Source of the DNA: Agrobacterium larrymoorei
GTDB lineage: Bacteria; Pseudomonadota; Alphaproteobacteria; Rhizobiales; Rhizobiaceae
Direction of reading: 5' to 3'
Length of the DNA: 64,000 bases
Assembly: GCF_030819275.1 (NCBI RefSeq)
Contig: NZ_JAUTBL010000002.1
Location: 2,420,501 to 2,484,500 of the forward strand
Numbering within the stretch: position 1 is the first letter of the stretch; every line of letters starts with the position of its first letter. The notes under the pieces are model-generated. The model was not told where the DNA came from. It saw only the letters and a program-made list of their open reading frames with translations, and did no database searches. A program made the translations under genes and the position numbers. Positions 9,186 to 28,978 of this stretch are shown here, piece by piece.

Positions 9186-10656
9186 GTTCGTCCTCCTTCA
9201 TTTGCTCAAGCCAGCCGCCCATATCAAAACGGGCAGGCTTGCTCGCCAAACCAAATTCAGCGGCCAGCGCACGCACCGCCCCGCGGTTTTCCGCCTCTGC
9301 ATCCATTGCCCACTCATCATCCGTCGCATCCAGCGTCGCCATGCGGTCAATCAGGGCCTCAAGTTCGTCAGCCTTGGCAGAGGCCGCCATATAGAAATGG
9401 CAGGCCATCAGCTGTCGCCGCTTCGCCTCCATCGCTTCTTTGAGATCGTCCTTGGCAAAGGCGCTGGCCGCCTCACCGGCCGTCTTGCGCTCTGCCGCAA
9501 GGTGGCGATCGGAATCCGTCGCACTGGACACTTTCAGCGCGCTGAACAGCCGGTGGACATTCCCCTCCACCTCCTGATGCGTCATCGCCTCGCCGCCCGA
9601 AAGCTTGCTCAGCGCATTCAGCTCCGCCAGCAGAAACGCCCGGCGCTTGTCCCCATGCAGCGCCTTCAGCGCCTCTTCTTCCAACCGGCCGTCAAGCAAA
9701 AGATCGCCGTGACGCTCAACCATCGTCCGCTCGGTCAGAAGCTCGATGGCAAGTTCGATTGGCCGCGCCCGCACCAGCGCCTGCAGAAACGCCCAACCAC
9801 TGTCAAACCCATACATGCCAGCAGCAATATCGGGGTGAATGCCGTCACGTCCGGCAAAGGCATTGGCGTGGTCCAGCTCGTCCTCGCTCGCATCCGTAAC
9901 GGGAGAAAGCGGCTTCAACCCAAATTCCCGCTCCAGAACGGCCCGGTCGAGCTTGATCCGCCCCACCGGCTTGCCCTCAAAATCCATGCCGAAGCGCAAT
10001 GCCTGAATCGCCTGGTAGATCGGCACGGCCTGCAAGGTCCGCGTCGAGATCTCCTTCACCGTCTCGCGCTCCTTGCGATACCAGTCCTGGCGCGCGAGAA
10101 AGATCGGCTTCATTACCTGACGCCGCAGTTTTTGATGCGCCTCGTCGTCTGCCTCTTCATGAAGCCGACGCAAACGCCGGTGCTCATCAGCAGAAAGCCG
10201 CGCCGTCTTCCCACCCTTGAACAACATGCCCGCAGACATGTCGTCGCGCGCCTCTTCGATTGCCGCATGTGTTGCCAGCATCCGCAAAAGCACGTCGCGA
10301 ATGTCGGGCGAAAGCGAAAGGTCAAGACCGCGCAGCGCCCCATAGACATGCAGAAGCCACTCGGCGAAATGCTCGAAAACAGTGCGAAGAGCCACTGAAG
10401 GCGCCTTACCCTCCAGCAGATACACCTCGAAGGCTTGGGCAAAATGCGCGTGAATCGCGCTTTCGTCAGCACCAGAAACCTCCCGTCCCCAGTCGCGCAG
10501 GGTCTCACCCATCTCACGCACATCGGCATCTGTCCGGCCAATTTCAGGAAGCGTTTCCAGAAAATACCGGCTCGTCCCACTAAGAAAAGCGGAAAGCTCA
10601 GCACTCTCAAAAAGCCGAATGAGGGATGGGGTTTCATCGGGTTGAACAGCGTCCAT
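9175..10656 (-). CDS. Polyvalent-type virion protein with inactive zincin-like domain
   Basis: A 493-residue protein. Residues 12-140 follow the pattern common in large phage polyvalent proteins: LFESAELSAFL, then FLETL, then a short FAQAFEVYLLEGKAPS stretch, then FAEWLLHVYGALRG and SPDIRDVLLRMLATHAAIEE. In active relatives the first part carries an HESxH-like metal site and a following HE; here these read SGTSRYF and AHF, so a metallopeptidase activity is unlikely. The rest is charged and helical. Together with its neighbours on both sides it looks like one long ejected polyprotein split into separate genes. Confidence 0.5.
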   Translation of the reverse strand: MDAVQPDETPSLIRLFESAELSAFLSGTSRYFLETLPEIGRTDADVREMGETLRDWGREVSGADESAIHAHFAQAFEVYLLEGKAPSVALRTVFEHFAEWLLHVYGALRGLDLSLSPDIRDVLLRMLATHAAIEEARDDMSAGMLFKGGKTARLSADEHRRLRRLHEEADDEAHQKLRRQVMKPIFLARQDWYRKERETVKEISTRTLQAVPIYQAIQALRFGMDFEGKPVGRIKLDRAVLEREFGLKPLSPVTDASEDELDHANAFAGRDGIHPDIAAGMYGFDSGWAFLQALVRARPIELAIELLTERTMVERHGDLLLDGRLEEEALKALHGDKRRAFLLAELNALSKLSGGEAMTHQEVEGNVHRLFSALKVSSATDSDRHLAAERKTAGEAASAFAKDDLKEAMEAKRRQLMACHFYMAASAKADELEALIDRMATLDATDDEWAMDAEAENRGAVRALAAEFGLASKPARFDMGGWLEQMKEDELVL

Positions 10657-10673
10657 CGAATCCCTCCTTGGAT

Positions 10674-12905
10674 TTATCGTCCGTTACGGTTCAGCGTTTT
10701 TCGACGGTCTGACCAGGGTGTGTCTGTCGGGACTGCGGGGCCTTGCCTGTTGAAGATCCCAGGGGACGGACTGGGCGATTCAAGCCGGCCAGCAGGTGCG
10801 GTGGATGACTGCAGCATTGCCTTGAACCTTTCCGTGGCGATGTCGCCATTGGAAGCCGTCCGTGGCGGTATCGAGACCGGAGAAGCCCCAGACCGATCAA
10901 TCCTCGACGACGTATCATTCCCGCCGGCAGCGGGAACGGTAGCACCGGAGCTGTTCGTACCACCCTGCCCATCGGCCGGCGCGACAGCAGCTTGCCCCGA
11001 AGCCCCATTGACCGCAGGAGGCTGCTTTTGGTTACCCGAGGAAGCGCCGACAGGCGGATTGTCTCGCGAATAGTCTTCACGCGTTTGACCGGTCTTGGCA
11101 GATCTCACGCCGCGCGTTGCATCCAGCGCCACAGCCTGAGACTGCGCCGGAGTGACGCTTGAAGCCTGCTGACGCTGGATGTCCTGCTGACGTTCCTGTT
11201 CAGAAATAATTTTGTTTTTTTCCTGGGCAATCCGCGCTGCCTCTAATTCACCATTGGTTTGGGTAGAAGGCTCGCTGTGCTTTAACTTCAAGTCTCGGAT
11301 TTCAGCAGGGGTCTTGGCCGTTGGATCGAAGCGCCCGTAGTCGTGAAACAAGGGTGCAATCTCGGTCCCTGCAATATCTGTCGTGTAGGTACTCGTGCGT
11401 ACTCCGACGTCGCCACCCGTTACCCGGGCAACGTCAACCTGCGCTTTTCCAATACCCGGCAGGTTTTCAAGTTGTACCTTGCCCTCGCCTGCCAGCCTTC
11501 GATTAAGCGCATCGAAGGGGCTAACGGGTATGTAGATTGTCTCCATAGGGCTGCCTCGTGTGATGGCATCAACGTGGTCCCTATATGTAATGGGGCTCCG
11601 AGCACGTAGCTTTGATTCTGAAGCCCGCTGCCCGATATCTTCAATCATGGTACTTGATCTTACTGGCTTCGGCACCTCATCGGCACCGTCCGGGAGACCG
11701 AAGAGTTTCTTGGTACTCTCTCCAAGAGCGTGCTGACCGGCACCGGTGAAAAATGCTTCCACTGTTCCGTCTGTTAGCGATCGCTGAGGGTCGGAGAGGT
11801 TTTGCGCTATAAAGTTTTCCCCTACCTTTTTTAGAGCTTCCTTTGTTCCCTCCCCGACCACCTCAGGGAGTAACTCCCCCGCTCGCTTACCCAGTATCTT
11901 TTCTAAAAAAGCGAATTTTAGTTTTTTATCGCCCGGAATAAAATCGAGGACTTCCAGTACAACACCTCCAATGGCTGCCTTGCTCTGGTCATTTTCATTC
12001 CCACCGCGCTCTCTCTCGTCTCTAGTTTGTTCTCCAGCACTCTTGAGCGTGTTGATAACCTTCGCACCTTTAGGCCCAACTAGCCTATTGATTATGGCCT
12101 CAAAAGCCACTTCGCCGATCACGTCACCGACCTTTTGGCCAATGCCATCTTTCAGACCCGGATAGGCGGGGAAAAGTTCGTCGCCGAAATCCTGTACGTG
12201 TTCACCAGCGAACTGCAAATTGTTTGACGCCCATTCGATACCGCCCACAGGATCGTTTTCCGCTTCTAGACGACGCGTGCGGAAAAACTCGTATACTTGG
12301 TCTTCGGTCTGATAGCCGGAGAGTACATTGGAGAGAACGTACTGTGCCCAAGTGTCCTTGATCTGCCCTTGCTTCGGGATGTCAGCGCGCAACTTCGCGA
12401 CATCCTCTGGCGACAAGCTCTTGGCTCGTGCAATTCGGACCACAATCTCCGGTGGCACCCATACAGGCGGATGCATCAACTGCCCCGCCCCCTCCAGTAC
12501 CGCTCCAACCTGGGAGATTACTTTACCGATAGGCCTTTTGACGGATTCACCCAGATTACCGACAGTGTACTCAAGCCAAGTGAGATTTTCGACATCGTCC
12601 CACGCAAGTCTGATATTGTCCGAATTCTTAAGCCACTGTGCAGTACGGGGCGAACCTTTGAGCATCGCTTGGTTGTGCGAACGTTGCAGCCACTCTAGCA
12701 GCATGTCACGACTGGCGGCTGCTACGTCGGCACTGATCCCGAAGGCGTTGCCAAGCTTCATGTCGTTCGCGAAAACATCCGGATTGACCTGTTGGGCATT
12801 GTTCAGGATGAGGTTAGTAGTATTGCCGACAGAATCTCGCTGGTATCGTTTCCATTCTAGGTACTCGTTAGGTGTTGGCATTGGTGCTCCATTAGGTGCG
12901 CTCAA
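10674..12905 (-). CDS. Large phage internal virion/ejection protein (743 aa)
   Basis: A 743-residue protein that starts MSAPNGAPMPTPNEYLEWKR. Residues 1-400 are helical with glycine-rich segments. Residues about 445-520 (METIYIPVSPFDALNRRLAG and the following beta-rich stretch) resemble a recurrent domain of phage polyvalent proteins. Residues 550-740 are low-complexity, rich in Q, S, G, P and N, and probably disordered. It ends 18 bases before the next gene. It most likely travels in the capsid and is ejected with DNA; no catalytic motif is seen. Confidence 0.5.
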   Translation of the reverse strand: MSAPNGAPMPTPNEYLEWKRYQRDSVGNTTNLILNNAQQVNPDVFANDMKLGNAFGISADVAAASRDMLLEWLQRSHNQAMLKGSPRTAQWLKNSDNIRLAWDDVENLTWLEYTVGNLGESVKRPIGKVISQVGAVLEGAGQLMHPPVWVPPEIVVRIARAKSLSPEDVAKLRADIPKQGQIKDTWAQYVLSNVLSGYQTEDQVYEFFRTRRLEAENDPVGGIEWASNNLQFAGEHVQDFGDELFPAYPGLKDGIGQKVGDVIGEVAFEAIINRLVGPKGAKVINTLKSAGEQTRDERERGGNENDQSKAAIGGVVLEVLDFIPGDKKLKFAFLEKILGKRAGELLPEVVGEGTKEALKKVGENFIAQNLSDPQRSLTDGTVEAFFTGAGQHALGESTKKLFGLPDGADEVPKPVRSSTMIEDIGQRASESKLRARSPITYRDHVDAITRGSPMETIYIPVSPFDALNRRLAGEGKVQLENLPGIGKAQVDVARVTGGDVGVRTSTYTTDIAGTEIAPLFHDYGRFDPTAKTPAEIRDLKLKHSEPSTQTNGELEAARIAQEKNKIISEQERQQDIQRQQASSVTPAQSQAVALDATRGVRSAKTGQTREDYSRDNPPVGASSGNQKQPPAVNGASGQAAVAPADGQGGTNSSGATVPAAGGNDTSSRIDRSGASPVSIPPRTASNGDIATERFKAMLQSSTAPAGRLESPSPSPGIFNRQGPAVPTDTPWSDRRKTLNRNGR

Positions 12906-13096
12906 TCGCTGCCAGCAAGCATCGCTTCAAATTGATTAGGAAGAACTTGATCAAATCCGCGATTTTTCTTGTTCTCTGTCTGTTCATCTCACCAGCTGTA
13001 TTTTAGTATCGCTGGGTGTCGAGTCGATTGTCGGCAGTATCTTGAGCCTCGGTTATGTTGAGGCTTTCCAATCATTCGTTTGGGGAACGGGGAAAC

Positions 13097-13432
13097 ATGC
13101 ATTTCAAGAAAATCACCTTCATCACACTCCTTTGCTCAGCCCTAGCGGGTTGCGGGATGACGTTGCCACTGAAGGGGCAGACAGCAAGCGGCGCCGAAAC
13201 TTTCTCCGGAAAGGCAACTGGATATGTGGACGGGGCAGGCACCATAGAATTGACCAGCAGCAAAGGCAGGAAATGCACTGGCACATTTGTCTACGTTACC
13301 AAGCGTAACGGAGAAGGAACCTTCACCTGCCAGGACGGCAAGAGTGGAGACTTCAAGTTTGTTTCCACCGGCTTGCGCGGTACCGGGTCAGGAACAATCG
13401 CTGGTGAACTGTTTACTTTCACCTTTGGATAG
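13097..13432 (+). CDS. Small lipoprotein, prophage cargo
   Basis: A 111-residue lipoprotein on the strand opposite the surrounding phage genes. It begins MHFKKITFITLLCSALAGCG, with lipobox LAGC. The mature part is small, polar and probably beta-rich (KGRKCTGTFVYVTKRNGEGT, then TGLRGTGSGTIAGELFTFTFG). The ATG at 13097 is preferred to 13055 because it starts a proper signal sequence. A lone reversed lipoprotein gene in a late operon is a typical lysogenic-conversion gene; superinfection exclusion at the cell surface is one known role for such genes but is only inference. Confidence 0.65.
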   Translation: MHFKKITFITLLCSALAGCGMTLPLKGQTASGAETFSGKATGYVDGAGTIELTSSKGRKCTGTFVYVTKRNGEGTFTCQDGKSGDFKFVSTGLRGTGSGTIAGELFTFTFG

Positions 13433-13567
13433 CTATCTGCGGTTAAAAAGAAATGGTGTGTCCAGCTGAATGCATATCAGCCGGATACCCGCGTCGAGAT
13501 CAGGAGCGATCACTCCATCGTTGCGCTGCCACCGATCCTGAGCTTGTGACCAAAGGACATAGAACGG

Positions 13568-16045
13568 CTATCGCGAAACGAACTTGATGTACTCCCTGAC
13601 GATTTCCTCCTCCGTGGGCTCTGGAGGTCTAACGGACCCACTCGAAGGCATCCTCTCATAGCGGAGTTGGGAACGAATCGTTTCGCGCACGTCGTGTGGG
13701 ATGTCGTCGAAGGCAACACTTATTTCAAAGGTGGAATCTGCTTTTCGTCTATTGGCCTCAAACAAAAAATGTCCGTTGTCATTGTGGGTAAACCATCCAA
13801 AACCAGACTTCGTCGTGATGACTATTGGTACCAACAAGTGACTGATGATTTTGTCCATCTCGACGTAATCAGGTCTTCTACCATTGTTCTGGCTGCGAAA
13901 TTCCTGAATCCTTACCTGCAATTCCTGTTGGAAAAAGAGGATCCTCTCCTGCATTTCCCTACGGGCTTCGGCTTGCATATCTCTCGTCCCGCGGCGGGAA
14001 ACGGCATCGATTGTTAATCCCGCTGCACTGAGTGCCTGCTTCGCCTGTTCATTGGCTTCCTTAAAAATGGTACCATCACGTTCAGCCTGGGCGTCATCGG
14101 CGAGAATGGCGTTTTTACGGTCCTGTAGCTCCTTCCAACTGCTGCGAGAAAGGCGGTTGATAAAATCCGGACTGGTCAGATCTAGCTTCGCGAAAGCCAC
14201 GGGCTCAAGGCGGGAATAGGTCGACAGCTTACTGTAAAGCACAGGATCGGTCTTGAGTTCGTCTGCCTTAGCTTCATACTCCATTAAAGCTGAAAGCTTG
14301 GGTTCCCCTATAGCAATCTTCAGTTCCACCGGAATCTGCGATAAGGGCGTCCCGTTCTGCATAAGCGTCCATATCCGGTCAGACGCTTTCTTGGCCTCCG
14401 CAATTTCGGCTTGCGATGCGCTGCTTATTTCCTCCGCTAGATGCCTCTGAGACGCTGCTCTCAGGTCCGCATCTGCGATCTGGTTGATACGACTGATAGC
14501 TTCCGCCTCGGAGATCATGGAAGTGCGCGCAGCAACCCCGTCGTAGGCCGAAACAATCACGCTACCTTCACGCCCAAACAGTGCCGGATCCGTGGATACG
14601 CCCAGAGAAAACAGAAAGCGCAGATGATACTTCTCCGCATTCTCGTGAAGCCAGTCGAGAACCTGAGCCGGAGCCTGATCCAGCGGCCGCCCCTCATAGG
14701 TCAACTGGATGCTGCGCCCACTGGAAACGGAAGACGCTGAGGCAACAGAGGCGCGTGATTTCGGGTCTACAAAGCTCACCCCCAGTCCCTTGCGAATGTT
14801 CTCTGGCGCATCCTCGATTAAGGCCTTGGTGTTTTCGGCAAGGGCGTTGTCAAGCGGAAGCGCGTCGCCGGGGAGATCGGGCTTTGCCGAGATTGAAACG
14901 AGAAACGCTTTCGCCCGCGTTGGTCCGCCGCGTTGCGGTTCTTCCTCCGCGGCACCGTTCACGCCACCTGTGGATGTCTGAGCGGGCTGAGCCTTCGCAT
15001 CCCCGACCCCGTCAAGGTTGCTGCTATTCCTGTCCGTTCCGACAACCGTATCCTTGTCGACATCAGCGGTTGGATTCTGAGCGGCATTGACACCGCCTCG
15101 CGTGCCAGCATCCTTACCAGCACCAGTCTCAGCCTTGCTGGACGGGGTCTTATCCACAGCGCCCGTCACAAGATCGTCAGTCGCGCCGGGGGGTGTCCGT
15201 TTCTCCGAAACGATCTCCAGGGCAATCTGTTTGCCCTTCTCATCGATGGCCAAGGGCCTGATCTTGGTCTCCAGGTCCGCCCGCGCCTTCGGGTCCACCT
15301 GGGCACTGTTGGCCTTCAGATACTCCATCGCCGCGGTCGCCCCACCAGGCTTTCCGGCCATCGTCATGGCTACCCCGGTGTGAAGTCCCGTTATGAAGTC
15401 CATGGCCTTGGCCACGATCACCTCCGGCGCCCAGCCGTTCAACTTACCGAGATTGTGGATTTCGGTGACGCCGGACGCCACTGCGGAAGTGATCTGCTCG
15501 GGCTTGTTGTACCCGGCGATCGCCTGGTCCTTGGCAAGAGAAAGCCTGCCTTCAGCGGCCTTGCCAACCCACTCCTTCTGTCCCTGCGCCTTGTGCTTGA
15601 TGGCGGCTTCCAGGCTGGTCGTCACCACAGGAGCAACCATCGCCTCATATCGTCCCGCCGCCAGCGGGTCTTTCGGTTCAAAGGTCTTTTGAAGCTTGGC
15701 AAGCGCGTCTTCATAGCCGGGATAGCCTTCGACAGCGCCTTGGCCGCTTGTGTTGAGATAGCCGTTTTCGCCGTGTTCCAACGCAAGCTTTGCCCGCTCG
15801 AAGGCGGTCTTGCTGTCCTTGGCGGTGGTGTCGGCCTGAAGGTCGCGCAGCTTGCTGGCAACCTCGGCCATCTTGCCAAGCCCCTCGCCAAGAGACTGCA
15901 TGCCCTTGCCGACCTGCGCACCAAAATCATTCTCCGTCGCCTTCACCGTCAGTGGCTGCTGGAGGATCGGCCGCTGCGCAACGCTTCCCTGATAAACAGG
16001 CACGGCGGCCTGGCGAAAATATTGTTTGACCGGAACCTCAGCCAT
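13568..16045 (-). CDS. Large internal virion protein (825 aa)
   Basis: An 825-residue protein starting MAEVPVKQYFRQAAVP. Residues 1-270 form an Ala-rich helical domain (GMQSLGEGLGKMAEVASKLR) typical of T7-type core/ejection proteins. Residues about 300-400 are a low-complexity linker rich in D, T, G and N. The C-terminal 400 residues are helical with a final beta-rich part. ATG 16045 is chosen because GGAG stands 6 bases before it, right after a terminator hairpin. No lytic transglycosylase motif was found, so it should not be called an enzyme. Confidence 0.6.
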   Translation of the reverse strand: MAEVPVKQYFRQAAVPVYQGSVAQRPILQQPLTVKATENDFGAQVGKGMQSLGEGLGKMAEVASKLRDLQADTTAKDSKTAFERAKLALEHGENGYLNTSGQGAVEGYPGYEDALAKLQKTFEPKDPLAAGRYEAMVAPVVTTSLEAAIKHKAQGQKEWVGKAAEGRLSLAKDQAIAGYNKPEQITSAVASGVTEIHNLGKLNGWAPEVIVAKAMDFITGLHTGVAMTMAGKPGGATAAMEYLKANSAQVDPKARADLETKIRPLAIDEKGKQIALEIVSEKRTPPGATDDLVTGAVDKTPSSKAETGAGKDAGTRGGVNAAQNPTADVDKDTVVGTDRNSSNLDGVGDAKAQPAQTSTGGVNGAAEEEPQRGGPTRAKAFLVSISAKPDLPGDALPLDNALAENTKALIEDAPENIRKGLGVSFVDPKSRASVASASSVSSGRSIQLTYEGRPLDQAPAQVLDWLHENAEKYHLRFLFSLGVSTDPALFGREGSVIVSAYDGVAARTSMISEAEAISRINQIADADLRAASQRHLAEEISSASQAEIAEAKKASDRIWTLMQNGTPLSQIPVELKIAIGEPKLSALMEYEAKADELKTDPVLYSKLSTYSRLEPVAFAKLDLTSPDFINRLSRSSWKELQDRKNAILADDAQAERDGTIFKEANEQAKQALSAAGLTIDAVSRRGTRDMQAEARREMQERILFFQQELQVRIQEFRSQNNGRRPDYVEMDKIISHLLVPIVITTKSGFGWFTHNDNGHFLFEANRRKADSTFEISVAFDDIPHDVRETIRSQLRYERMPSSGSVRPPEPTEEEIVREYIKFVSR

Positions 16046-16051
16046 GGCGCA

Positions 16052-16082
16052 CTCCATAAAAAAGGCGCCCCGAAGAACGCCT
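16052..16082 (-). terminator. Terminator upstream of the 825-aa virion protein gene
   Basis: On the minus strand AGGCG pairs with CGCCT around a 10-base loop and is followed by T6. The layout (hairpin, T run, ATGGAGTG, start codon) is nearly identical to that upstream of the tail fibre at 6702-6724, so this seems to be a repeated regulatory arrangement in the late region. Confidence 0.5.
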
Positions 16083-16187
16083 GGTAACATCTGATCTCGT
16101 GATTTTGTCAGAGCAGGTCGCAACCAATGGCCGAGCCCTCACCCGCGGCGGTTCTGCGCATTCTCACCTGTGAGAACACACGCCTAA

Positions 16188-16286
16188 GCATGTCGCGCAA
16201 AAGTGGTCACCGGTTTTGCGATAACGACATGCGACAAAACAAAGATCTAAAGCGTATGAGCGAATCTGAAAGATCGCGACACGCTT
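16188..16286. repeat. Rhizobial intergenic palindromic repeat
   Basis: Two back-to-back palindromes: CATGTCG-cgCAAAA paired with TTTTGcgataa-CGACATG (16189-16231), then AAAGCGT...GATC...ACGCTTT (about 16250-16286). This composite is a common short repeat of Rhizobiaceae chromosomes. A degraded relative is at 51925-52010. It lies between the diverging virion gene and the first secreted-protein paralog. Confidence 0.65.
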
Positions 16287-16302
16287 TAGCTCGAAGAAAC
16301 GA

Positions 16303-16332
16303 CTCGACAGCCTTTTCAACTCCTGCGCAAAT
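16303..16332 (+). repeat. Conserved upstream box, copy 1
   Basis: A ~30-base sequence starting ctcgacagccttttcaac and ending tgcgcaaat, about 45 bases upstream of the first secreted-protein paralog. It recurs at 17859-17890 and 18723-18755 at a similar distance from the next paralog. It may be part of the promoter or simply the edge of the duplicated unit. Confidence 0.6.
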
Positions 16333-16376
16333 ATCCAGGTCTCAATCCCATCCCGAACTCGAACAGCAGGCCGCAT

Positions 16377-16985
16377 ATGAAACTGGCAATCACCGCCCTT
16401 CTTCTGGCCTGCATGCCTTTTGCAGCTTCAGCAGAGGACGCCCCCTCGAAGGATACCATCCTGTGGGGCACATTCGGTGAATGGAAAGTTTTTGTGGACA
16501 CTTCCGCTGGCAATGCCTGTTACGTGGGTCGTGTGTACGACGCGAGCGTCGTGCTACGATTTGGCCGCTACAGAAGACAGGGCGACTCCGGCCTGTACAT
16601 GTCGGTCAATAATCCAAAGTGGAAATCGCTCAAGAATGAGCAAGAGTATCCCGTCGACGTTCAGTTTGGCGATAATGATACTTGGTCCGGAAACGCGTTG
16701 GCGGTCGTGGAGGACGACAATATAACGCGCTCGCTCGTGGTCTCCGGTGCAGATGAAAAGTTCCTCGAAGAATTCGAGACAAGCGACACAGCCAAAGTTT
16801 ACTATGATGACAAGGAGATCGCCAACCTGTCGCTAAAGGGCGTCGCCAAGGCCGTGAGCGAAATGAATGCCTGCCAGAAGAAGACCGACGAGGTTTTGAA
16901 GAAACTAAACCCGAAGCCTGAAGAGGCTGACCCTTTCGCCAAAAAATCTCCTGTCGGAGCAGCGGACCGTCCGCTCGAGCTGTAA
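16377..16985 (+). CDS. Secreted paralog 1 of 5 (WGxFGxW / Cys-pair / DPFAK)
   Basis: A 202-residue protein with a clear signal peptide (MKLAITALLLACMPFAASA, cut before EDAP), so it is periplasmic or exported. The mature part has a WGTFGEWKVF motif, an N-terminal cysteine (NACYVGRVY), a central NNPKWKSLK motif, a predicted beta-rich body, and a second cysteine near the C-terminus (EMNACQKK), which could form a disulfide with the first. The tail carries ADPFAKK. The same framework is seen in many alphaproteobacterial hypothetical secreted proteins. It is the first of five tandem paralogs and ends in TAATG, overlapping paralog 2. No function is known. Confidence 0.75.
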   Translation: MKLAITALLLACMPFAASAEDAPSKDTILWGTFGEWKVFVDTSAGNACYVGRVYDASVVLRFGRYRRQGDSGLYMSVNNPKWKSLKNEQEYPVDVQFGDNDTWSGNALAVVEDDNITRSLVVSGADEKFLEEFETSDTAKVYYDDKEIANLSLKGVAKAVSEMNACQKKTDEVLKKLNPKPEEADPFAKKSPVGAADRPLEL

Positions 16986-17797
16986 TGGCGATGGACTGCG
17001 CCACCGTTGAGGACAAGTGGCAGCTTTCGAACTCGATGATAGAAGCAATGCAGACTAGGCAGACAAATGCCGCCACCAATGAGAAACCAGTGATTTTTCA
17101 ATCGATATTGTCTGAGAAAGCGGTTTTGCTCAGAACCGCGCAAACAGCCTTTGCACTCGCATTCCTCGCATGCTTGCCAACCACCACACGTGCAGAGACC
17201 GAATTGTGGGGACAGGTCGGTGAATGGTCCGTTTTCAATGACCGTCGAGCGACGCACGGTTGCTCGATGTACAGGTCGTTTGGCACAGACGCCTCCATCA
17301 CTCTCGGCGTCTTACCTCTGGAAGAAGCGCGAGGCGTTTACTTCTCGGTCACCCACAACAAATGGACTGTACTTAAACCCAGCAGGAACCTCGATGTGCG
17401 TCTTCAGTTCGGTTCATCGGCGCCCATAAAGGCGAAAGCCGATTTCATGGACGATAGCCACATGCTATTTATTGTGGTGCCGCAGGATACTCAACTTTTC
17501 GAAGAGTTCGCAAAGAATAAGGTGCTTCACGTCAAACCTGTGAGCGGAGCGGCCATTGCATTGAAGTTCGATCGCGCTGCCGAGGCGATTTCTGCAATGC
17601 TTGACTGCTTGGCAATGGTTACAGAAGACCTTAAAAGCTCGCCGGAAGAGTTTGGTAATCCATTCGCCAAGACGCCAGAGACTGAGACACCGGATGATCC
17701 ATTCGCCAAGCCTCCAGCGGAGAGCACCACGGAGGATCCTTTTGCCAAGCCGCCGGCAACAAGGGCAACGGATGACCCATTCGCGCCCAAACCATGA
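16985..17797 (+). CDS. Secreted paralog 2 of 5, with DPFAK repeats
   Basis: The most diverged member, up to 270 residues. The ATG at 16985 overlaps the stop of paralog 1 (TAATG), but that start gives an odd N-terminus of about 50 residues before the hydrophobic signal (TAQTAFALAFLACLP, cut near TRA-ETE). A later start at 17036, 17048 or a TTG at 17108 would give a normal signal peptide. WGQVGEWSVF, a cysteine (THGCSMY) and a C-terminal cysteine (AMLDCLAM) are kept. The tail has four units of about 12-13 residues: NPFAK, DDPFAK, EDPFAK, DDPFA. Confidence 0.68.
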   Translation: MAMDCATVEDKWQLSNSMIEAMQTRQTNAATNEKPVIFQSILSEKAVLLRTAQTAFALAFLACLPTTTRAETELWGQVGEWSVFNDRRATHGCSMYRSFGTDASITLGVLPLEEARGVYFSVTHNKWTVLKPSRNLDVRLQFGSSAPIKAKADFMDDSHMLFIVVPQDTQLFEEFAKNKVLHVKPVSGAAIALKFDRAAEAISAMLDCLAMVTEDLKSSPEEFGNPFAKTPETETPDDPFAKPPAESTTEDPFAKPPATRATDDPFAPKP

Positions 17798-17858
17798 ACC
17801 AGCTTAGCGTCAATGGCGGCGGTGCACCGAGCACGATCTCACCGACACGGCGAAACGC

Positions 17859-17890
17859 CTGGACAGACATTTCAACCTGTGCGCAAATGA
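17859..17890 (+). repeat. Conserved upstream box, copy 2
   Basis: A ~32-base sequence (ctggacagacatttcaacct ... gcgcaaatga) matching the boxes at 16303 and 18723. It ends about 37 bases before the start of paralog 3. Confidence 0.6.
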
Positions 17891-17926
17891 ATGACCTTCA
17901 ACCTGGTTCTGATCAACAAGTCCCGC

Positions 17927-18532
17927 ATGAAACAGACAATTGCCGCTTTTCTTGTCGTCCTCGCGCCATTTGTTGCTGTCGCAGAGGACGCGCCCCCGAA
18001 AGACTCCACCGTCTGGGGCACCTTCGGTGGATGGCACGTCTTTATGGACCCTACCCGCGGAAATGCTTGTTACGTGGCCCGCATCTACGGTGAAGGCGTC
18101 GTAATGCGATTTGGACGCTTTCGTCAAAAGGACGGCTCTGGCCTGTACTTGTCCGTCAATAACCCAAGGTGGAAATCTCTGAAGGATGATGAGAGATATG
18201 CCTTGGAAGTTCAGCTTGGCGATCATGGAATCTGGAAGACGAACGCATGGGCAACAGTGGAAGATGATTTCCAGCGCAGGCTCTTGATCGCCACAGATAA
18301 TGAGATGTTCCTCGAACACTTCCAGACCAGCGACACCGCCACGATCTCCTACGAAGGCAGACAGATCGCTAACCTCTCCTTGACAGGCGTCGCCAAGGCA
18401 GTAACCGAGATGAACGCCTGCCAGCAAAAGACCGACGAGATTTTGAACGCCCGAGAACCGAAGTCCAGGGAGGCCGATCCCTTTGCCAGGGCCCCCTCCT
18501 TAGAACCATCAGGCGATCCCCGTAAACTGTAA
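17927..18532 (+). CDS. Secreted paralog 3 of 5
   Basis: A 201-residue protein very close to paralog 1. It has signal peptide MKQTIAAFLVVLAPFVAVA, then WGTFGGWHVF, NACYVARIYG, NNPRWKSLKD, and EMNACQQKTD before an ADPFARAP tail. ATG 17927 is chosen over 17891 by analogy with the MKQ/MKL starts of the other members. Paralogs 1 and 3 are clearly the most recent duplicates, sharing motifs from the signal cleavage site to the tail. Confidence 0.75.
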   Translation: MKQTIAAFLVVLAPFVAVAEDAPPKDSTVWGTFGGWHVFMDPTRGNACYVARIYGEGVVMRFGRFRQKDGSGLYLSVNNPRWKSLKDDERYALEVQLGDHGIWKTNAWATVEDDFQRRLLIATDNEMFLEHFQTSDTATISYEGRQIANLSLTGVAKAVTEMNACQQKTDEILNAREPKSREADPFARAPSLEPSGDPRKL

Positions 18533-18722
18533 CACTTGCTGTCTTCGCCCTTATGTCGAGGTCTGATGCGCCTGCGGACGACCCCGGGGTCGGGAGGTCA
18601 GCCCCTCGACGCTGGCCTCAGCACAATCTGACCGGCCAAGTAGCCCGGTCAATATTGATCTAACGGACTAAAGCATCCTCTCTGCAACCCATCAGGCGCA
18701 CCCCGTTTCCAAAGCAAAACCA

Positions 18723-18755
18723 CTCGACAGACATCTCAACTCATGCGCAAATGAG
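18723..18755 (+). repeat. Conserved upstream box, copy 3
   Basis: A ~33-base sequence (ctcgacagacatctcaactc ... gcgcaaatgag), the third copy of the box, about 48 bases before paralog 4. The region 18533-18802 otherwise holds no gene. Confidence 0.6.
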
Positions 18756-18802
18756 CAAGTTTTGCCCCTAGTCTTGATGACCCTTACGAAGCAGGCCCTT
18801 AC

Positions 18803-19408
18803 ATGAAACAGGCAATCGCCGCCCTCCTCCTGGCCTGCATGCCTTTCGCCGCCGCCGCGCGAGACGCACCGGAGATAAAAGACCCAGTCCTTTGGGGCAA
18901 ATTCGGGACCTGGAGGGTTCAGATGCAACCGAACCTCGACAATACGTGTGTCGTCATGTCTGCGTTTGAAACCGGTCATGACCTGATGTTTTGGCGCTAT
19001 TTCAAAAAGGGAAAGCCAGGCTTTTTTCTCTCTGTTGGGAATGAAAAATGGAAATCGCTGGTCCACAAGAAAGTCTATTCCGTCAACTTCGAGTTCGATG
19101 AGGGCATCAACTGGGATGTAGAGACTACAGCCTACGTTCAAGGAACCAACCGTAGACTCATGATGAAATCGAGTTTGCAGGACTTTCTCGACGGGTTCAA
19201 GTCCAGCAAAGCCGTCAAGATGTTCTATGAGAAGAAGGAGATAGCCCACCTTTCCCTAAGTGGCGTCGAAGAGGCTATAGAAGAAATGGATGCCTGTCAG
19301 AAGACGACCGACGAATTCTTCAAAATCTCCAGAACAAAGCCCGACACGTCCGATCCCTTCGCCAGAAAATCTTCCACGCAAGCCTCGGACGACCCCTTTA
19401 AACCGTGA
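18803..19408 (+). CDS. Secreted paralog 4 of 5
   Basis: A 201-residue protein with signal peptide MKQAIAALLLACMPFAAAA. It keeps WGKFGTWRVQ, the first cysteine (NTCVVMSAF), GNEKWKSLVH, the second cysteine (EMDACQKTTD), and a tail with SDPFARK and DDPFKP. It has diverged in its middle from members 1 and 3 (for example a DLMFWRYFKKG stretch). The box at 18723 precedes it. Exported to the periplasm or beyond; role unknown. Confidence 0.75.
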   Translation: MKQAIAALLLACMPFAAAARDAPEIKDPVLWGKFGTWRVQMQPNLDNTCVVMSAFETGHDLMFWRYFKKGKPGFFLSVGNEKWKSLVHKKVYSVNFEFDEGINWDVETTAYVQGTNRRLMMKSSLQDFLDGFKSSKAVKMFYEKKEIAHLSLSGVEEAIEEMDACQKTTDEFFKISRTKPDTSDPFARKSSTQASDDPFKP

Positions 19409-19515
19409 TCGAGGTAACAGTAGCCTCGATGTGCAGTCGATAAGAGCGATGGTCGAACAGAGCTGTCACAACCGTATCCGGAACGATAACCATCCAGCAT
19501 GATCAGGCAAAAGAC

Positions 19516-20079
19516 ATGGATAGGCTCCTGAAACGCACCCTCCTCGCCGCATGCCTTCTCTACATGCCGTTCGGAGCCAATGCTGCTCCTGTTGAATGGG
19601 GAAACTTTGGTAACTGGTCGGTGGCCGTGGAGCCCGATCGCAATTTTGGCTGCTATGTGGCGCTTCGCTCCAAGGGCGATACGATCCTGCATTTTGGCAT
19701 GGACCTCGCTACGGAGTTTCCGAGGTTCTATCTTCTGTTGAGGAACGAGAAGTGGAAATCATTGGAAGACGAAAAGGTCTACCCGCTGCTTTTCACCTTC
19801 GATTCAAAGAAGCCCTTGGAGGTGGAAGCAATCGCATCGGTCAGCGAGACATCGCAGGATCTGGCAATCGGGAAACTGGGGGGCAAGTTCATCGTGGAAG
19901 CCCAGAAAAGCAGTCAGTTGCGTATCACCTACGCCGACAAGGAGGTTGCAAACCTTCCGCTTGAAGGTGCAGCCACGGCATTCTACGAAATGCGCGCCTG
20001 CCAGGACAAGACCGAAGAAACGCTTCGCAAAAGCCGAGATGAAGCAAAGCAGCAGGATCCCTTCGCCAAAAAACCATGA
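19516..20079 (+). CDS. Secreted paralog 5 of 5
   Basis: A 187-residue protein, the shortest member. The signal peptide is MDRLLKRTLLAACLLYMPFG with cleavage near ANA. Conserved parts are WGNFGNWSVA, the first cysteine (NFGCYVALRS), RNEKWKSLED, the second cysteine (EMRACQDKTE), and a single QDPFAKKP ending. No copy of the upstream box was found before it. It ends 39 bases from the converging end of the frameshifted gp14-like gene. Confidence 0.75.
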   Translation: MDRLLKRTLLAACLLYMPFGANAAPVEWGNFGNWSVAVEPDRNFGCYVALRSKGDTILHFGMDLATEFPRFYLLLRNEKWKSLEDEKVYPLLFTFDSKKPLEVEAIASVSETSQDLAIGKLGGKFIVEAQKSSQLRITYADKEVANLPLEGAATAFYEMRACQDKTEETLRKSRDEAKQQDPFAKKP

Positions 20080-20117
20080 CGGTTGGACGCGTTAGCGAAT
20101 CCCGATGCCGAAAAAAC

Positions 20118-20637
20118 TCACGTCCCCGATTTCGCCTTGAACAACGGACTATCGCCAAACGTCTTGCTCGCTCCGGTCAGCAGCGTGCCAATCGCTTTCA
20201 GGTTACCGCCCTTGCGGGTGTTCTTGGCGTTTGCCCGCGCAAGGCTGGCCTCCGCCCGGCCATTAGCCGCCGCCACGTCGAAGTCATAGGCCTCGTTTGC
20301 GGCGTTGCGGCGAATGGTCAGCGCGTCGATCTCGCCAAGCGTTGCAGTATCGACCAACAGATCGAGCGGGGAGCCGAATGTCAGGTCCACGCCATTGGCG
20401 GCCATGGCTGCCCTTTGCTGGCCGGTAATCTGCGCCGTCTCCTGGCGCTTCTTCTGCTCTTCCAGCTTGCCGCGGTCCAGTGCGTCACGCGCCCGCCTCT
20501 CGAGAAAGCCGCACATTCATGTCGGTGACTTTCGCGTTATATTCGGATGCGGCGGCACTTGCCTCCGCCTCCTGTTTTGCGCCGGCCGCACCAATCACGG
20601 TCGAGGCGGCGCCAAGGATCAGACCAAAATCACACAT
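20118..20637 (-). pseudogene. gp14-like internal virion protein, one-base frameshift
   Basis: The start codon (complement of 20635-20637) follows the gp13-like stop by 3 bases and opens MCDFGLILGAASTVIGAAGA ... EYNAKVTDMNVRLS, the usual N-terminus of T7 gp14-type proteins. The frame then hits TGA at 20485-20487. A frame one base away continues as ERRARDALDRGKLEEQKKRQ ... RRNAANEAYDFDVAAANGRA to 20118. The junction is the CTCGAG at about 20499-20504, where one extra base explains the break. A full product would be about 172 residues. Either the prophage is defective in this core protein or the base is a sequencing error. Confidence 0.7.
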
Positions 20638-20640
20638 GCC

Positions 20641-21099
20641 TCAAGCCTTCATCTCAAAAATACGAAAAGGGCGCTGCTCATAGCCAAAGGGCTGCGGATC
20701 GGAGAGCGTGAAGCCCAGCCATTGCAGCCACCGTTTGGAAACCACATTCCGGTCATCGACCACATTCTGCAGCAGCGTGTAGCGCTGCCGCATCTCGGCC
20801 ACCCAGTGGAGAGAGCCACGCAGAAAGTCGCGCGCATGCCGCTCCAGCGCATCGGTGCCCAGCAGCCACGGCGCACCGGTCCGGGTCAGAATATTCGTCG
20901 TGCCGCAGCCGAACATCAGCTCCGGCACATCGTCAAACAACACGGTATGGGCAAAGTCGGACCGCTCAAGCGAGTGCAAAAGCGCAGAGGCCGGTCCGCG
21001 TCCCACGGCGGCGAACACCTCCTCGCGGTCGGCCTCACGCATCCGCGGCGCAATCACATCCACATGGTCGATGCTGGCCTCGATCACCCGAACTGTCAC
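20641..21099 (-). CDS. gp13-like internal virion protein A (DUF2833-like)
   Basis: A 152-residue protein resembling T7 gp13/DUF2833, which has a GNAT-like fold: DVIAPRMREADREEVFAAVG at the start, then VLFDDVPELMFGCGTTNIL, APWLLGT, and NVVSKRWLQWLGFTLSDPQP at the end. In T7 gp13 is needed for correct core assembly. Acetyltransferase activity should not be assumed. The ATG overlaps the nozzle gene stop by four bases (ATGA), and the gp14-like gene follows at 3 bases. Confidence 0.78.
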   Translation of the reverse strand: MTVRVIEASIDHVDVIAPRMREADREEVFAAVGRGPASALLHSLERSDFAHTVLFDDVPELMFGCGTTNILTRTGAPWLLGTDALERHARDFLRGSLHWVAEMRQRYTLLQNVVDDRNVVSKRWLQWLGFTLSDPQPFGYEQRPFRIFEMKA

Positions 21100-23711
21100 G
21101 CTGCCACCCTGAGATCCGGCATGATGGCCAGAACGGTCATCGGCAGCGGATCGAACTGCTTGATGATCATCGTCCCGCCCTTCGTCCAGTCCGCCGTCGG
21201 CGTCAGTTCCACATCGCCGGTCGCAAGGCGGATCGCCTCGCTCCAGTTCTCGAACTCACGCTGCTTCAGCTCCACCAGCGCATCCTCGGCAGGCCCGGCC
21301 CAGATGCCGCGGGTCTTTTCCACTCGCAGCGTGATATTGGCGATTGCCTTGTTTCTGGCCTGCACCGTGCCAAGCTCACCCACATTGCCGAGATCGATAT
21401 CGAGCGTCCTCAACTCCGCTTCGTAAGGCAGGCCCACATGCACCTTGGAAGCGGCAATCGGCAGCGTCACCGTGCCATTCGTCACCATCAGGTCGCGCAC
21501 CACATTGCCATCCGCCAGCGCAACCAGCGTCTTGCCTTCGAGGTGGTGAAGCCCGCGCATCGTCTTCGTGGCTGAACCCTCATAGGAAAGCCCGCTATCG
21601 ACGAAGAACGCATCTTCGGACACCGCAAAGAGGCGCGAATGCATGCGCTCGATGTAACGCTGCGACTTGCCATCCACCGTCCGGCGAATGACGAAATAGA
21701 CCGCGTCCTCGTCGCCCTCGGCCACCACATTCACCGCCTCGAACTGACCGTCCGTCTCATGCCGCGTCCAGGCCCATACCTCATGCTCGCGCATATAGGT
21801 CAGGCTCACGCATTGCCCATTGTCCAGCACCACCCAGACGATCGAATAGGGCGACTGCGCAAAGGCCCAGGAGACCACCTGCCGACCTTCGAACAGATGG
21901 CGCGACATGATCGTCAGATCCTTGCCGGTGAAGTTGTCGTTGGAAAATTCATAGGAATAATCGCGAATGACCCCGCCCCGCGCCAGCGCAAACAGCATCA
22001 CATCGCCCACCGCAATCGGCTGCAACCAGGATGAGCCACGGTTGCTCTGCTTCTTCACCACCATATTGGTCGGCGTCATGATCTCTTCGCCACTGCCGGC
22101 CACGTTGAATTCATTCGCCGTGGTGAAGACCGCCATGCCGCGAGACTCGCTGATCGCCCGGATCTGGTTCTTCTCCTTGGAACGGATGCGCAGCGTGATG
22201 GCATCGCTCGCCTTCACCGGCGAGGCCGCGCCGAAGTTCTCATAGTTCGCAGACTGCCCGAGCCACAGACCTGCCGGCACATTTGCCGTGCCGCCCATGG
22301 CAAGGCGCTGCTCGTAGAAATTCACGCAGGCCGGATAATTCCCAACACTGTTGAAAGGATTGTTGCCCTCCTGCGGACCGCTCGCCAGATCCGGCGTGAT
22401 ATTCTCATCGGTAAAGCTCGTCGTCTCGGTCTTGCCGATATAGCCATAACGGCCATTGTCCAACCGATAGACCGCATAGCTTCCGGCCCCTGGCGTCGCC
22501 GTCCAGAACAGCAGATTGCGGTTGCCGCGATAGACCATGTCGTTGCGCAGCGTCGCAGGCTCGGATGGCAGGCTTTCTTCCCCCGTCTCATCGGAGATGG
22601 CCGCCACCACATATTTCATCTCCTTACCGTAGACGATCGCCCCCGTCACGCCCGTTGGCACCGGCGGTGCGCCGCTCGCGGAGGCTGAGGGGATGGCCGT
22701 TCCATCCCCTTGATACTGCGTCTGGTCGATCTCAATTTCCGTAACCGGCGTTTCGGCCAGAATGCCGGTACTGCCATCGGAACGATAGATGCGATAAAGG
22801 GCAGCGCCCGTGGAAGCATTCCAGGTCAGTCGCACCCGGCGCCCGTCCTCATTCTCATATTGAACGCCAACGGTCACGGCAGCCGACGCCGCGCTTTCCG
22901 CCCCTGACGCACTGATCGCGGAGATACGATATCCGATATTGGCGACATTACCGGTTTTCCGTTTGAAATAGACTGTGCCCTTCACCCCCGTAGGCTTGGC
23001 AATCTGCGGCACGAATGTCAGCGACGAGAACATCCAGTTGGCATCGCCGAGCCGTGAAAGCTTCATCGGCGGATGCGCCTGGTGCGTCAGATACATCACG
23101 TCGTTTTCCTGGGCGAAAACCACGCGCCGCAACTCGTCCGCCGTATAGGGCGATGCAATCTCGTAGACGCGCCGCGCTGTGCCGCCACCCGCATAGGCCG
23201 GCATCCCAAGCGTGGAGACCGCCACCCCCAGCAGATCTTCCAGCTGATACGTATTGGTCGTCACATTGCGGATGATGAAATTGCGGTTGTTCAGCGCGCT
23301 CATGCCCGAGAGTCCGGCAATGAAGACCTCATCACCATCGGCAAAACCATGCGCTGCGCACGTCACCACACCCTTTGCCGCAACCGAAACGCCGGTAATC
23401 CCCTTTGCCGCTTCCAGCACCGGACTTCCGGCGCGGTAGATACGCATCTTCAGGTGAGAAAATTCCAGATTGTAGGTCTGGTCCGTCTCCGCATCGAAGA
23501 TGAAGGGCAGGAGAATGGCAAAGCCGGAGCCTCGCGTCCGGCCGACAAATTCCAGCCCGCTGCGGTTGGAGGCCCCGCCATGCGGATGAATGAAAATGTT
23601 CTTCGCCACCTTCAGCCCGGACCGGTATTTTTCCACATCGACCCGCGCCCACAGCGCCGGGCTCAACTCGCCGGAGGTAAAGGCCGGCTGCATCACACGC
23701 AAAATCGCCAT
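21096..23711 (-). CDS. Tail tubular protein B-like (nozzle) protein
   Basis: An 871-residue structural protein that begins MAILRVMQPAFTSGELSPAL and has the HPHGGASNRSGLEFVGRTRG stretch typical of podovirus nozzle/tail tubular B proteins. Residues about 240-440 read as two fibronectin-type III-like repeats (VGYRISAISASG- and KYVVAAISDETGE-like strands). The C-terminal half is beta-rich. It would form the distal tail tube, attaching fibres to the tubular A ring. The order tubular A, tubular B, gp13-like, gp14-like is as expected for a T7-type tail. Confidence 0.75.
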   Translation of the reverse strand: MAILRVMQPAFTSGELSPALWARVDVEKYRSGLKVAKNIFIHPHGGASNRSGLEFVGRTRGSGFAILLPFIFDAETDQTYNLEFSHLKMRIYRAGSPVLEAAKGITGVSVAAKGVVTCAAHGFADGDEVFIAGLSGMSALNNRNFIIRNVTTNTYQLEDLLGVAVSTLGMPAYAGGGTARRVYEIASPYTADELRRVVFAQENDVMYLTHQAHPPMKLSRLGDANWMFSSLTFVPQIAKPTGVKGTVYFKRKTGNVANIGYRISAISASGAESAASAAVTVGVQYENEDGRRVRLTWNASTGAALYRIYRSDGSTGILAETPVTEIEIDQTQYQGDGTAIPSASASGAPPVPTGVTGAIVYGKEMKYVVAAISDETGEESLPSEPATLRNDMVYRGNRNLLFWTATPGAGSYAVYRLDNGRYGYIGKTETTSFTDENITPDLASGPQEGNNPFNSVGNYPACVNFYEQRLAMGGTANVPAGLWLGQSANYENFGAASPVKASDAITLRIRSKEKNQIRAISESRGMAVFTTANEFNVAGSGEEIMTPTNMVVKKQSNRGSSWLQPIAVGDVMLFALARGGVIRDYSYEFSNDNFTGKDLTIMSRHLFEGRQVVSWAFAQSPYSIVWVVLDNGQCVSLTYMREHEVWAWTRHETDGQFEAVNVVAEGDEDAVYFVIRRTVDGKSQRYIERMHSRLFAVSEDAFFVDSGLSYEGSATKTMRGLHHLEGKTLVALADGNVVRDLMVTNGTVTLPIAASKVHVGLPYEAELRTLDIDLGNVGELGTVQARNKAIANITLRVEKTRGIWAGPAEDALVELKQREFENWSEAIRLATGDVELTPTADWTKGGTMIIKQFDPLPMTVLAIMPDLRVAA

Positions 23712-23715
23712 GGTC

Positions 23716-24297
23716 TCAGCCTCGTGCCGTCATCAGCGTGGAACTGTCGGTCCAGCTCGATCGATTTTCATCCGCATCCGCCTCCTTCGCCGCCTCGAAA
23801 GACGAGGCCGCAATCTGGTAGGCATCCTTGCGGGTGGACTGGTCGGAGGTCAGTGGAATGGCGATCTTGGCCGACAGCGCCCAGCTCAGCGCCTCTTCAA
23901 AAAGCGGCGGATAGCGCGCCGGATCGTCGAACTGCCGCACGAATTCCAGCTTCGCTGGAGACTGATCGCAAAAGATCAGCCCTTCGGTGGCATGATAGGC
24001 CACATCGTCACTGTCTCCCGGCAGCAGCACCGCTGGTACGATGCGCAGCGGCTTCAAACAATTTTGCGGCCGCGCATAGGCGTGGCGCCAGCGCTCAGGG
24101 CGCGGATTGGCCACCTCCGCCAGATCGACCATGGTCTTGGCAAATTCCCATTCATAGGATTGCAGCAACCGGTCGCGCGTCAACGCGTAGTGAAGCTTGC
24201 AGGTGCGCGCCTCGGTCGAGGGCTCGTCTATGTCGGAAATGGTCTTCTTGCCGATATTGGACAGCGCAATGTTGCAGATGCTGGTAACGGATGACAT
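23716..24297 (-). CDS. Tail tubular protein A-like (gp11-type) adaptor
   Basis: A 193-residue protein starting MSSVTSICNIALSNIGKKTI, with the conserved E-A-R-T-C-K-L-H-Y and R-D-R-L-L-Q-S-Y-E-W-E-F-A segments of T7 gp11-type proteins. It joins the portal to the nozzle. ATG 24297 is used because family members start with this motif and a terminator hairpin sits just upstream; a reading from 24351 would run through the hairpin. Confidence 0.8.
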   Translation of the reverse strand: MSSVTSICNIALSNIGKKTISDIDEPSTEARTCKLHYALTRDRLLQSYEWEFAKTMVDLAEVANPRPERWRHAYARPQNCLKPLRIVPAVLLPGDSDDVAYHATEGLIFCDQSPAKLEFVRQFDDPARYPPLFEEALSWALSAKIAIPLTSDQSTRKDAYQIAASSFEAAKEADADENRSSWTDSSTLMTARG

Positions 24298-24306
24298 TCG
24301 CTTCTC

Positions 24307-24342
24307 CAAAATAGAAAACCCGGCTCTGGATTGAGCCGGGTT
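24307..24342 (-). terminator. Terminator after the head genes
   Basis: A 10-bp perfect stem (AACCCGGCTC with GAGCCGGGTT), 6-base loop, then TTCTATTTT on the minus strand. It separates the head genes from the tail tubular A gene and would lower expression of tail genes relative to capsid genes. Confidence 0.75.
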
Positions 24343-24369
24343 CGGCGTCATAAGTTTGATCGATAGGGA

Positions 24370-25281: not shown

Positions 25282-26277
25282 TCAGACGATCTGCCCTTCT
25301 GTTTCGAGAATATTGTCGTCGCGGCGGATCGGCACGCCGAGGAAGGAGACGATCGGCTTGCCCTGGCTCTGGTCGAGCGTCAGGTTCACATTGGTGCGGT
25401 TCATTGCCTGCTTGTGCAGGAAGGTCTGCACCGTCTTGCTGGCATAGATCACCGTCTTGCCGTTCGGCTGGTTCGGGTTCTGCAATGCGTAGTAGCCGTC
25501 GATCATCAGGTTGATGAGATCGGCGCCGCCAGCCGTGGGATTGGCGCGCAGGTCGGAAACGTCGATATTGGCGATACGCGCCACGCCGCGCCAGTCGCGC
25601 ACGGAAAGGCCGATATCCTGCTGGAACTTCTCGCGGTACACATCGTAGAGAGAGCCGTCCGGCAGTTCCTTGGTGGTCTTGCCCTTGTCGTCGCGCTGCA
25701 GACCGGCCTTCGATCCTTCCGGATAAAGCAGGTGAACGGAATCCTCACCCCAGGTTACGAACCAGATGGAGGTGTTGTCCGACCCCGTGCCGCCGGCATC
25801 GACGATCTGGCGGCCATTGGCGGCGGATTTGGCGTTGAAGCGGGCATGCAGGCCGGTAAAGCGCTCCGGGTTCACGTCGATATCGCCATAATAGACGGTG
25901 GAGCCCAGCATGTTCGCCATGCCCGCAATATGGGCCTTGGCTTCGTTCAGACGAAACCGCGCCGGGTTCTTGGCGATCTCCACCAGCTTGGCGTCGACTT
26001 CCGACCAGTCTTCCAGCATGCCGGTCGCGTCCTTCACCTGCGCCGTCGTGCCCTTGGTCGGCAGAACGCCCTTGTAGAGCTTGCGCCAGGTGGGAACGGG
26101 AAGGCCGGTGCGCACCGTCGTCAGATGCGACGAGCCCATGTTGCATTCGAAGATCGGCGCGTCTTCATACATCGCGTTGAACTGCACCAGCATGTCGATG
26201 ATGGTGGAAATGTCGTCGCCCCAGCCCTGCTTCTTCAGGTCGGAAAGCGTGGGATACATATTGCCGATAGTGGCCAT
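25282..26277 (-). CDS. Major capsid protein (Bbp17-like)
   Basis: A 331-residue HK97-fold major capsid protein of the BPP-1 type. Recognisable parts are the N-terminal MATIGNMYPTLSDLKKQGWG, the FECNMGSSHLTTVRTGLPVP and NPERFTGLHARFNAKSAANG segments, the QDIGLSVRDWRGVARIANID stretch, and the C-terminal TVIYASKTVQTFLHKQAMNR. It lies between the scaffold and the cement genes. It indicates the head belongs to the BPP-1 lineage while the tail is T7-like. Confidence 0.85.
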   Translation of the reverse strand: MATIGNMYPTLSDLKKQGWGDDISTIIDMLVQFNAMYEDAPIFECNMGSSHLTTVRTGLPVPTWRKLYKGVLPTKGTTAQVKDATGMLEDWSEVDAKLVEIAKNPARFRLNEAKAHIAGMANMLGSTVYYGDIDVNPERFTGLHARFNAKSAANGRQIVDAGGTGSDNTSIWFVTWGEDSVHLLYPEGSKAGLQRDDKGKTTKELPDGSLYDVYREKFQQDIGLSVRDWRGVARIANIDVSDLRANPTAGGADLINLMIDGYYALQNPNQPNGKTVIYASKTVQTFLHKQAMNRTNVNLTLDQSQGKPIVSFLGVPIRRDDNILETEGQIV

Positions 26278-28977: not shown

Positions 28978-28978
28978 A

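Follow-up and report, generated by a model that had tools for sequence, protein, structure and literature searches.

A reversed five-gene array of predicted IalB-fold proteins between virion genes of an Agrobacterium larrymoorei prophage

We analysed a 64,000-nucleotide stretch of the Agrobacterium larrymoorei genome (hereafter the window; G000:C2:2420501-2484500), which belongs to a 4.88-Mb assembly of two contigs. The window contains a prophage whose podovirus-type late genes lie on the minus strand around an array of five plus-strand genes, c1-c5, that spans 16377-20079. The features are as follows.

2099-2686: endolysin-type gene
10674-12905, minus: ej2, first of three phrog_9880-matching ORFs, highly variable
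13055-13432, plus: small gene forming a second cargo within the late operon; resembles a lipoprotein by eye
13568-16045, minus: ej1, presumed ejection protein (listed ORF to 16123; role suggested by position and size)
16305-16332, plus: upstream element of c1, promoter-like (genome-wide pattern search)
16377-16985, plus: c1, 202 aa, predicted to be secreted, with an IalB-like fold in a structure model
17090-17797, plus: c2, the most divergent paralog, its tail carrying the (N/D)PFA repeat four times
17861-17888, plus: upstream element of c3, with 3 mismatches (genome-wide pattern search)
17927-18532, plus: c3, sister of c1 in the tree and present in type A arrays only
18725-18752, plus: upstream element of c4 (genome-wide pattern search)
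18803-19408, plus: c4
19516-20079, plus: c5
20118-20516, minus: internal virion protein, bordering the insert on the side opposite ej1 (phrog_418, E 1.5e-30)
20641-21099, minus: internal virion protein
21096-23711 (gp12-like, phrog_376) and 23716-24351, minus: tail
25282-26277, minus: major head
27262-29028, minus: head-tail adaptor of portal size
29974-31485 and 32027-32581, minus: terminase
38387-38986: repressor-type gene

The initial annotation had described five consecutive plus-strand paralogs lying in reverse orientation between virion genes, and both points were confirmed. A search of the genome with c1 recovered the other four array genes at E-values of 7.5e-73 to 1.2e-15, the alignment of the five proteins contains 19 invariant columns, and the array is flanked by the minus-strand genes 20118-20516 and ej1. 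The count of five holds for the array itself, and a sixth, chromosomal copy is also present (C2:339167-339751). The listed ORFs are 16377-16985, 16985-17797, 17891-18532, 18803-19408 and 19516-20079. The second of these overlaps the stop codon of c1, and from our reading of the sequence the GTG at 17090 is more likely to be the start of c2 than position 16985; the ATG at 17927 is likewise a more likely start of c3 than 17891.

All five proteins carry a WGxxGxW motif, a DPFA tail and two cysteines, one placed early and the other late, in line with the motifs first proposed, but c2 departs from the others in reading WGQVGEW, KWTVL and SAMLDC. A wide family alignment of 101 sequences (91 of 146 protein ids plus 10 rows from the window and L013; another family set comprised 78 sequences) keeps both cysteines without exception, and C48 and C166 presumably form a disulfide. 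The DPF tail is typical of longer family members, being found in 32 of the 39 rows with 180 aa or more versus 1 of the 62 shorter rows (A5 alignment). The DPF(A) repeats, such as those at 17645-17797, fall in a low-confidence tail and are retained in distant relatives, P0016 and P0018-P0025 among them; they may represent a docking motif. As the initial annotation had stated, the five proteins appear to share a signal peptide: by eye, each N-terminus is hydrophobic and closes in a small-x-Ala site, and export of c1-c5 to the periplasm is predicted on this basis. Because a cysteine lies, again by eye, inside the hydrophobic stretch of c1, c2, c4 and c5 (LAAC in c5; none in c3), a lipoprotein signal is possible for some copies.

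None of c1-c5 reached the cut-off of any Pfam or NCBIfam model or matched a PHROG at E 0.01, and a weak match of c4 to DUF1176 (E 0.01) was below the cut-off and was rejected. The search of known exclusion/defence families with PADLOC yielded only two weak CARF-HEPN matches (E 0.0052 and 0.045), c1 had no match at E 0.01 among 50,697 records of isolated phages, and no RNA family was found at gathering score in 12800-21000. Structure prediction of the mature domains, which had been suggested at the outset, gave models of c1 and c2 whose predicted fold resembles that of IalB (invasion-associated locus B; Bartonella; PF06776, COG5342; PDB 3dtd). In a profile comparison that took 28 of the 32 IalB loci, the 101-row family profile matched the 28 IalB proteins with a probability of 83% over 131 columns, versus at most 0.45% for 20 column shuffles; three narrower family profiles gave 3.8-7.0%, and shuffles across the comparison gave at most 0.66%. 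TEAD entries headed the Foldseek PDB results and were taken as chance matches (E at least 0.037 and TM 0.21-0.25 in the best 50 rows). The flagellar motor protein MotY (2zf8; 8z5n includes it as a chain of the flagellar LPHT ring), one of the nearest known systems considered, was not among the best 50 rows for c1. The array proteins differ from IalB in having no PF06776 match (none for any of c1-c5 even at E ≤ 10), in the early and late positions of their cysteines, and in their DPFA tail and tandem arrangement in a prophage. The window genome contains three PF06776 genes, all located elsewhere than the array, and PF06776 was found in all 31 genomes sampled from the order. Among the papers listed by literature searches, none described a prophage-borne array of IalB genes.

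Family matches are carried by 31 of 394 Rhizobiaceae genomes, with six matches in the window genome and one or two in each of the other 30. In the genus sample, 5 of the 39 genomes match: G000 (6), G396 (6), G419 (2), G412 (1) and G417 (one, weak). A wider search collected 233 family proteins and, among the 120 listed, those whose source name can be read are called 'hypothetical protein'. Neighbourhoods of relatives were read by eye at 10 of the 20 loci fetched, together with L015 and L068, and hold mostly lone chromosomal genes among ordinary genes, which we take from their sequences to include those for Hsp33 and ApaG, LexA and cytidylate kinase; one relative adjoins an integrase. Scans of viral contigs for close relatives found the family in this phage clade only, except for one match near a contig end. 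This chromosomal setting and the rarity of the family on viral contigs favour a host-type envelope role. The initial annotation had regarded homologues that are mostly single chromosomal housekeeping genes of known function as evidence against its own reading; the relatives whose surroundings were read are indeed mostly single chromosomal genes, and none of those named carries a known function.

Upstream of the array genes we identified an element, CGACAG-N3-T-N2-CAACTC-N-TG-N-GCAAAT. With up to three mismatches, it occurs at four places in the 4.88-Mb genome (16305, 17861 and 18725 of the window and C2:339785), all of them before family genes, and the reversed control pattern has no match genome-wide. 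The element lies 33-50 bases ahead of the family start codons as placed here; the copy at C2:339785 stands before the lone chromosomal gene, and variant forms are found ahead of the chromosomal copies in G396 and G412. In our own reading, the element is promoter-like (TCGACA-17-GCAAAT with an extended TG). A generic consensus promoter scan returned three sigma-70-like sites where 3.8 are expected by chance, with no plus-strand site among them, and did not flag the element. The genes without the element, c1b (described below), c2 and c5, are placed behind c1, c1b or c4, which suggests the transcription units c1-c2, c3 and c4-c5.

Presence or absence of the array was scored at 69 loci of viral and genome contigs, with gp12 as the anchor. 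Some of these are one contig reached twice (L144 is G396:C21 and L143 is G419:C20), and many, including L094 and L108 (gp12 90-92%), do not extend far enough to reveal the site. The array, which the initial annotation had proposed to look for in other rhizobial prophages, is present at 10 of the 69 loci, each time flanked by the same pair of genes or truncated at a contig end (2 of the 10), and the gp12 of all ten is at least 91% identical to that of the window. In eight loci with gp12 of 54-80% (L089, L091, L093, L095, L096, L097, L099 and L102), the flanking genes are adjacent and the array is absent; this count covers loci with gp12 of 54% or more, and in some below that value (L107 and L146) the two genes are ~1.4 kb apart. 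The genus sample gave the same picture, with the array in all three genomes with gp12 of at least 92% and none at the site in all five with gp12 of 56-74%, where the flanking genes are adjacent. The GC content of the array genes is 50.8-54.6%, compared with 59.4-63.4% in the eight stretches measured (terminase, portal, head, tail-tube, internal-virion and the N-terminal part of ej1) and 56.4% in the tail fibre; low GC is also seen in the lipoprotein-like gene, the C-terminal part of ej1 and ej2. The array therefore shows two marks of a moron, namely presence/absence at one site among related phages and a base composition unlike that of the surrounding phage genes. A second, distant gp12-like gene (26%; G000:C2:1356438-1357820) possibly marks another prophage in the window genome.

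Two complete forms of the five-gene array were distinguished: type A, c1-c2-c3-c4-c5 (window and L007), and type B, c1-c1b-c2-c4-c5 (L008, L009, L010, L013 and L014). The arrays of L011 and L012 are cut by contig ends and include c3, and all genes are open in the seven complete arrays read. G419 has a two-gene form, whose first gene matches c1 of the window in its upstream and signal-peptide parts (87-100% in 50-base steps) and type B c4 in its mature part (86-100%), indicating a fusion left by a c1-to-c4 deletion. In the gene tree, orthologs cluster by array position and gene order is kept between phages, which indicates that most of the duplications are old; c3, a gene of type A arrays, is sister to c1 (support 95/78). 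The tree is compatible with a single origin of the array but does not show one, with two changes on the best tree and one change in 12% of 200 bootstrap trees.

The array genes are under purifying selection. The dN/dS filter printed 55 ortholog pairs (not every phage was entered for every gene), and the ratio is 0.09-0.49 in all 49 with at least 10 changes and a defined value, with c1 and c1b highest. Among the other six, five have fewer than 10 changes (0.86, 0.26, 0.14, zero and undefined) and one, a chromosomal pair, is saturated. Paralog pairs have dS of about 1 or more. The initial proposal that repeated duplication reflects selection for variety is not supported by these ratios, the kept order and the age of the duplications, and diversifying selection is rejected at the whole-gene level.

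The ejection-type genes beside the array are highly variable. No PHROG match was found for ej1 at E 0.001. Its first 480 residues are 87-95% identical between array phages of different class, whereas the C-terminal part (13568-14605, minus) falls into three allele classes, 33-58% identical between and 93-100% within classes: window and L092; L081, L087 and L144; and L083, L084, L086 and L143. The class border lies near residue 480, where GC falls from 60.6 to 52.0%. Variation in ej2 is not strictly tied to the ej1 class (L083 and L084 share a class, and their ej2 are 32% identical), and the ORF after ej2 (9175-10656) is 86-95% conserved where covered. Array type did not track the ejection alleles. 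Near-identical type B arrays are found alongside each of the three ej1 classes, and type A alongside two of them, and the type B arrays L013 and L009, which differ by one change in c1, carry different ej1 classes, indicating that the array and the ejection module recombine. The idea that hypervariable ejection genes are an array-specific sign is weakened because the array-less G410 and G412 differ as much (gp12 84%, ej1 36%); the close array-less pairs G410-G411 and L093-L102 show no such divergence.

Several further features were observed in this region. The slot between ej1 and ej2 holds the gene 13055-13432, 99% identical in L092, and another plus-strand ORF in L007 (5594-5920). L007 also contains a transposase-like ORF, presumably of IS110 type, between ej1 and the array (8956-9771, plus). 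A terminator-like hairpin lies on the late strand just before the ej1 ATG at 16045 (16063-16082, minus), in a scan that gave 7 sites against 9.1 by chance. The giant phage family phrog_9880 (2231 positions) is matched by three consecutive ORFs in the window (6984-12905, minus), as in the other array-bearing phages read, and by one ORF of 2161-2364 aa in the array-less L093, L209 and L210, so that the giant protein looks split in the array-bearing clade; it is at least 2039 aa, cut, in L089 and L091, consists of two ORFs in L211 and has no match in L207 and L208.

The empty sites, the upstream element and the low GC support the view, present in the initial annotation, of accessory secreted-looking paralogs with a logic of lysogenic conversion. 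Our leading explanation, held tentatively, is that the array is an accessory cassette of old, periplasm-bound IalB-fold paralogs that may convert the lysogen envelope and block DNA ejection by related superinfecting phages. The cassette runs counter to the two virion genes that flank it in the podovirus-type prophage, and the upstream elements would drive its transcription in the prophage state, independently of the late operon, as c1-c2, c3 and c4-c5. The paralogs would be exported to the periplasm and alter the envelope, where their folded domains could interfere with assembly of the ejection-protein conduit, and DNA ejection by related phages would be blocked. The analogy is with P22 SieA, which is reported to block DNA injection, with escape changes in the C-terminal regions of ejection proteins, and is proposed to hinder conduit assembly from the inner membrane (PMC10883804). 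In the same paper, SieA and HK97 gp15 are accessory prophage genes, as the array is, and are reported to act on DNA entry; however, they are single inner-membrane proteins (gp15 by prediction), in contrast to five secreted-looking, beta-rich paralogs with a putative exclusion role. Surface exclusion by the array, suggested by the initial annotation, is a hypothesis. The location of the cassette among ejection-type genes and the three C-terminal classes of ej1 behind a conserved N-terminus count in its favour, whereas the lack of matching between array and ej1 class and the variation of ejection proteins in array-less relatives count against it. Further points against the leading explanation are the absence of PHROG matches and of convincing PADLOC matches, the mostly chromosomal setting of the relatives, the low IalB probability from the narrower profiles and the promoter scan that gave no plus-strand site. 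A more elaborate version, in which a recombining array was captured from the host with its promoter and each paralog jams a different conduit allele of sibling podoviruses, driving allele switching of the ejection genes, is doubtful.

A serious competitor, although again one to which we give less than an even chance, is lysogenic conversion without exclusion, in which the lysogen benefits from an array that increases or varies an IalB-like function of the host periplasm, whether in cell-pole growth, in envelope integrity or in contacts with a eukaryotic host. The chromosomal relative has the same upstream element as the array, and other Rhizobiaceae hold relatives as one or two copies. In addition, Sinorhizobium meliloti RgsG is described as an IalB-domain protein in polar growth that is essential, periplasmic and located at the growing pole, with its molecular function reported as unknown (PMC7327166). 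Compared by description rather than by sequence, RgsG resembles the array in being periplasmic (by predicted export for the array), IalB-type and from Rhizobiales, but it is a single, essential, conserved gene and not a five-gene prophage array. This explanation leaves unaccounted for the five diverged copies among the ejection genes of one prophage clade, and three Pfam IalB genes already exist elsewhere in the window genome. Exclusion at the periplasmic conduit is provisionally placed first and the host envelope role next, an order that could reverse.

A lytic-cycle role of the array proteins, whether in the virion, in lysis or in release, with the reverse orientation being incidental, seems improbable: the array lies inside the late gene block and the viral fold matches of c1 include a protein of Sphingobium phage Lacusarx named IalB, but the genes run opposite to the late genes, have their own upstream elements and are missing from relatives with related virion genes. 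Neutral hitch-hiking of decaying host gene copies is very unlikely, since every gene is open in the seven complete arrays read and dN/dS is well below 1, even though gene content varies (two five-gene types and one two-gene form) and one gene is fused.

If the preferred explanation, exclusion at the periplasmic conduit, is true, a secreted, multi-copy class would be added to the known exclusion proteins. Five diverged IalB-fold genes under purifying selection in a phage would also provide a removable system for probing the role of IalB-type proteins, which are common across the order (31 of 31 genomes sampled carry PF06776).
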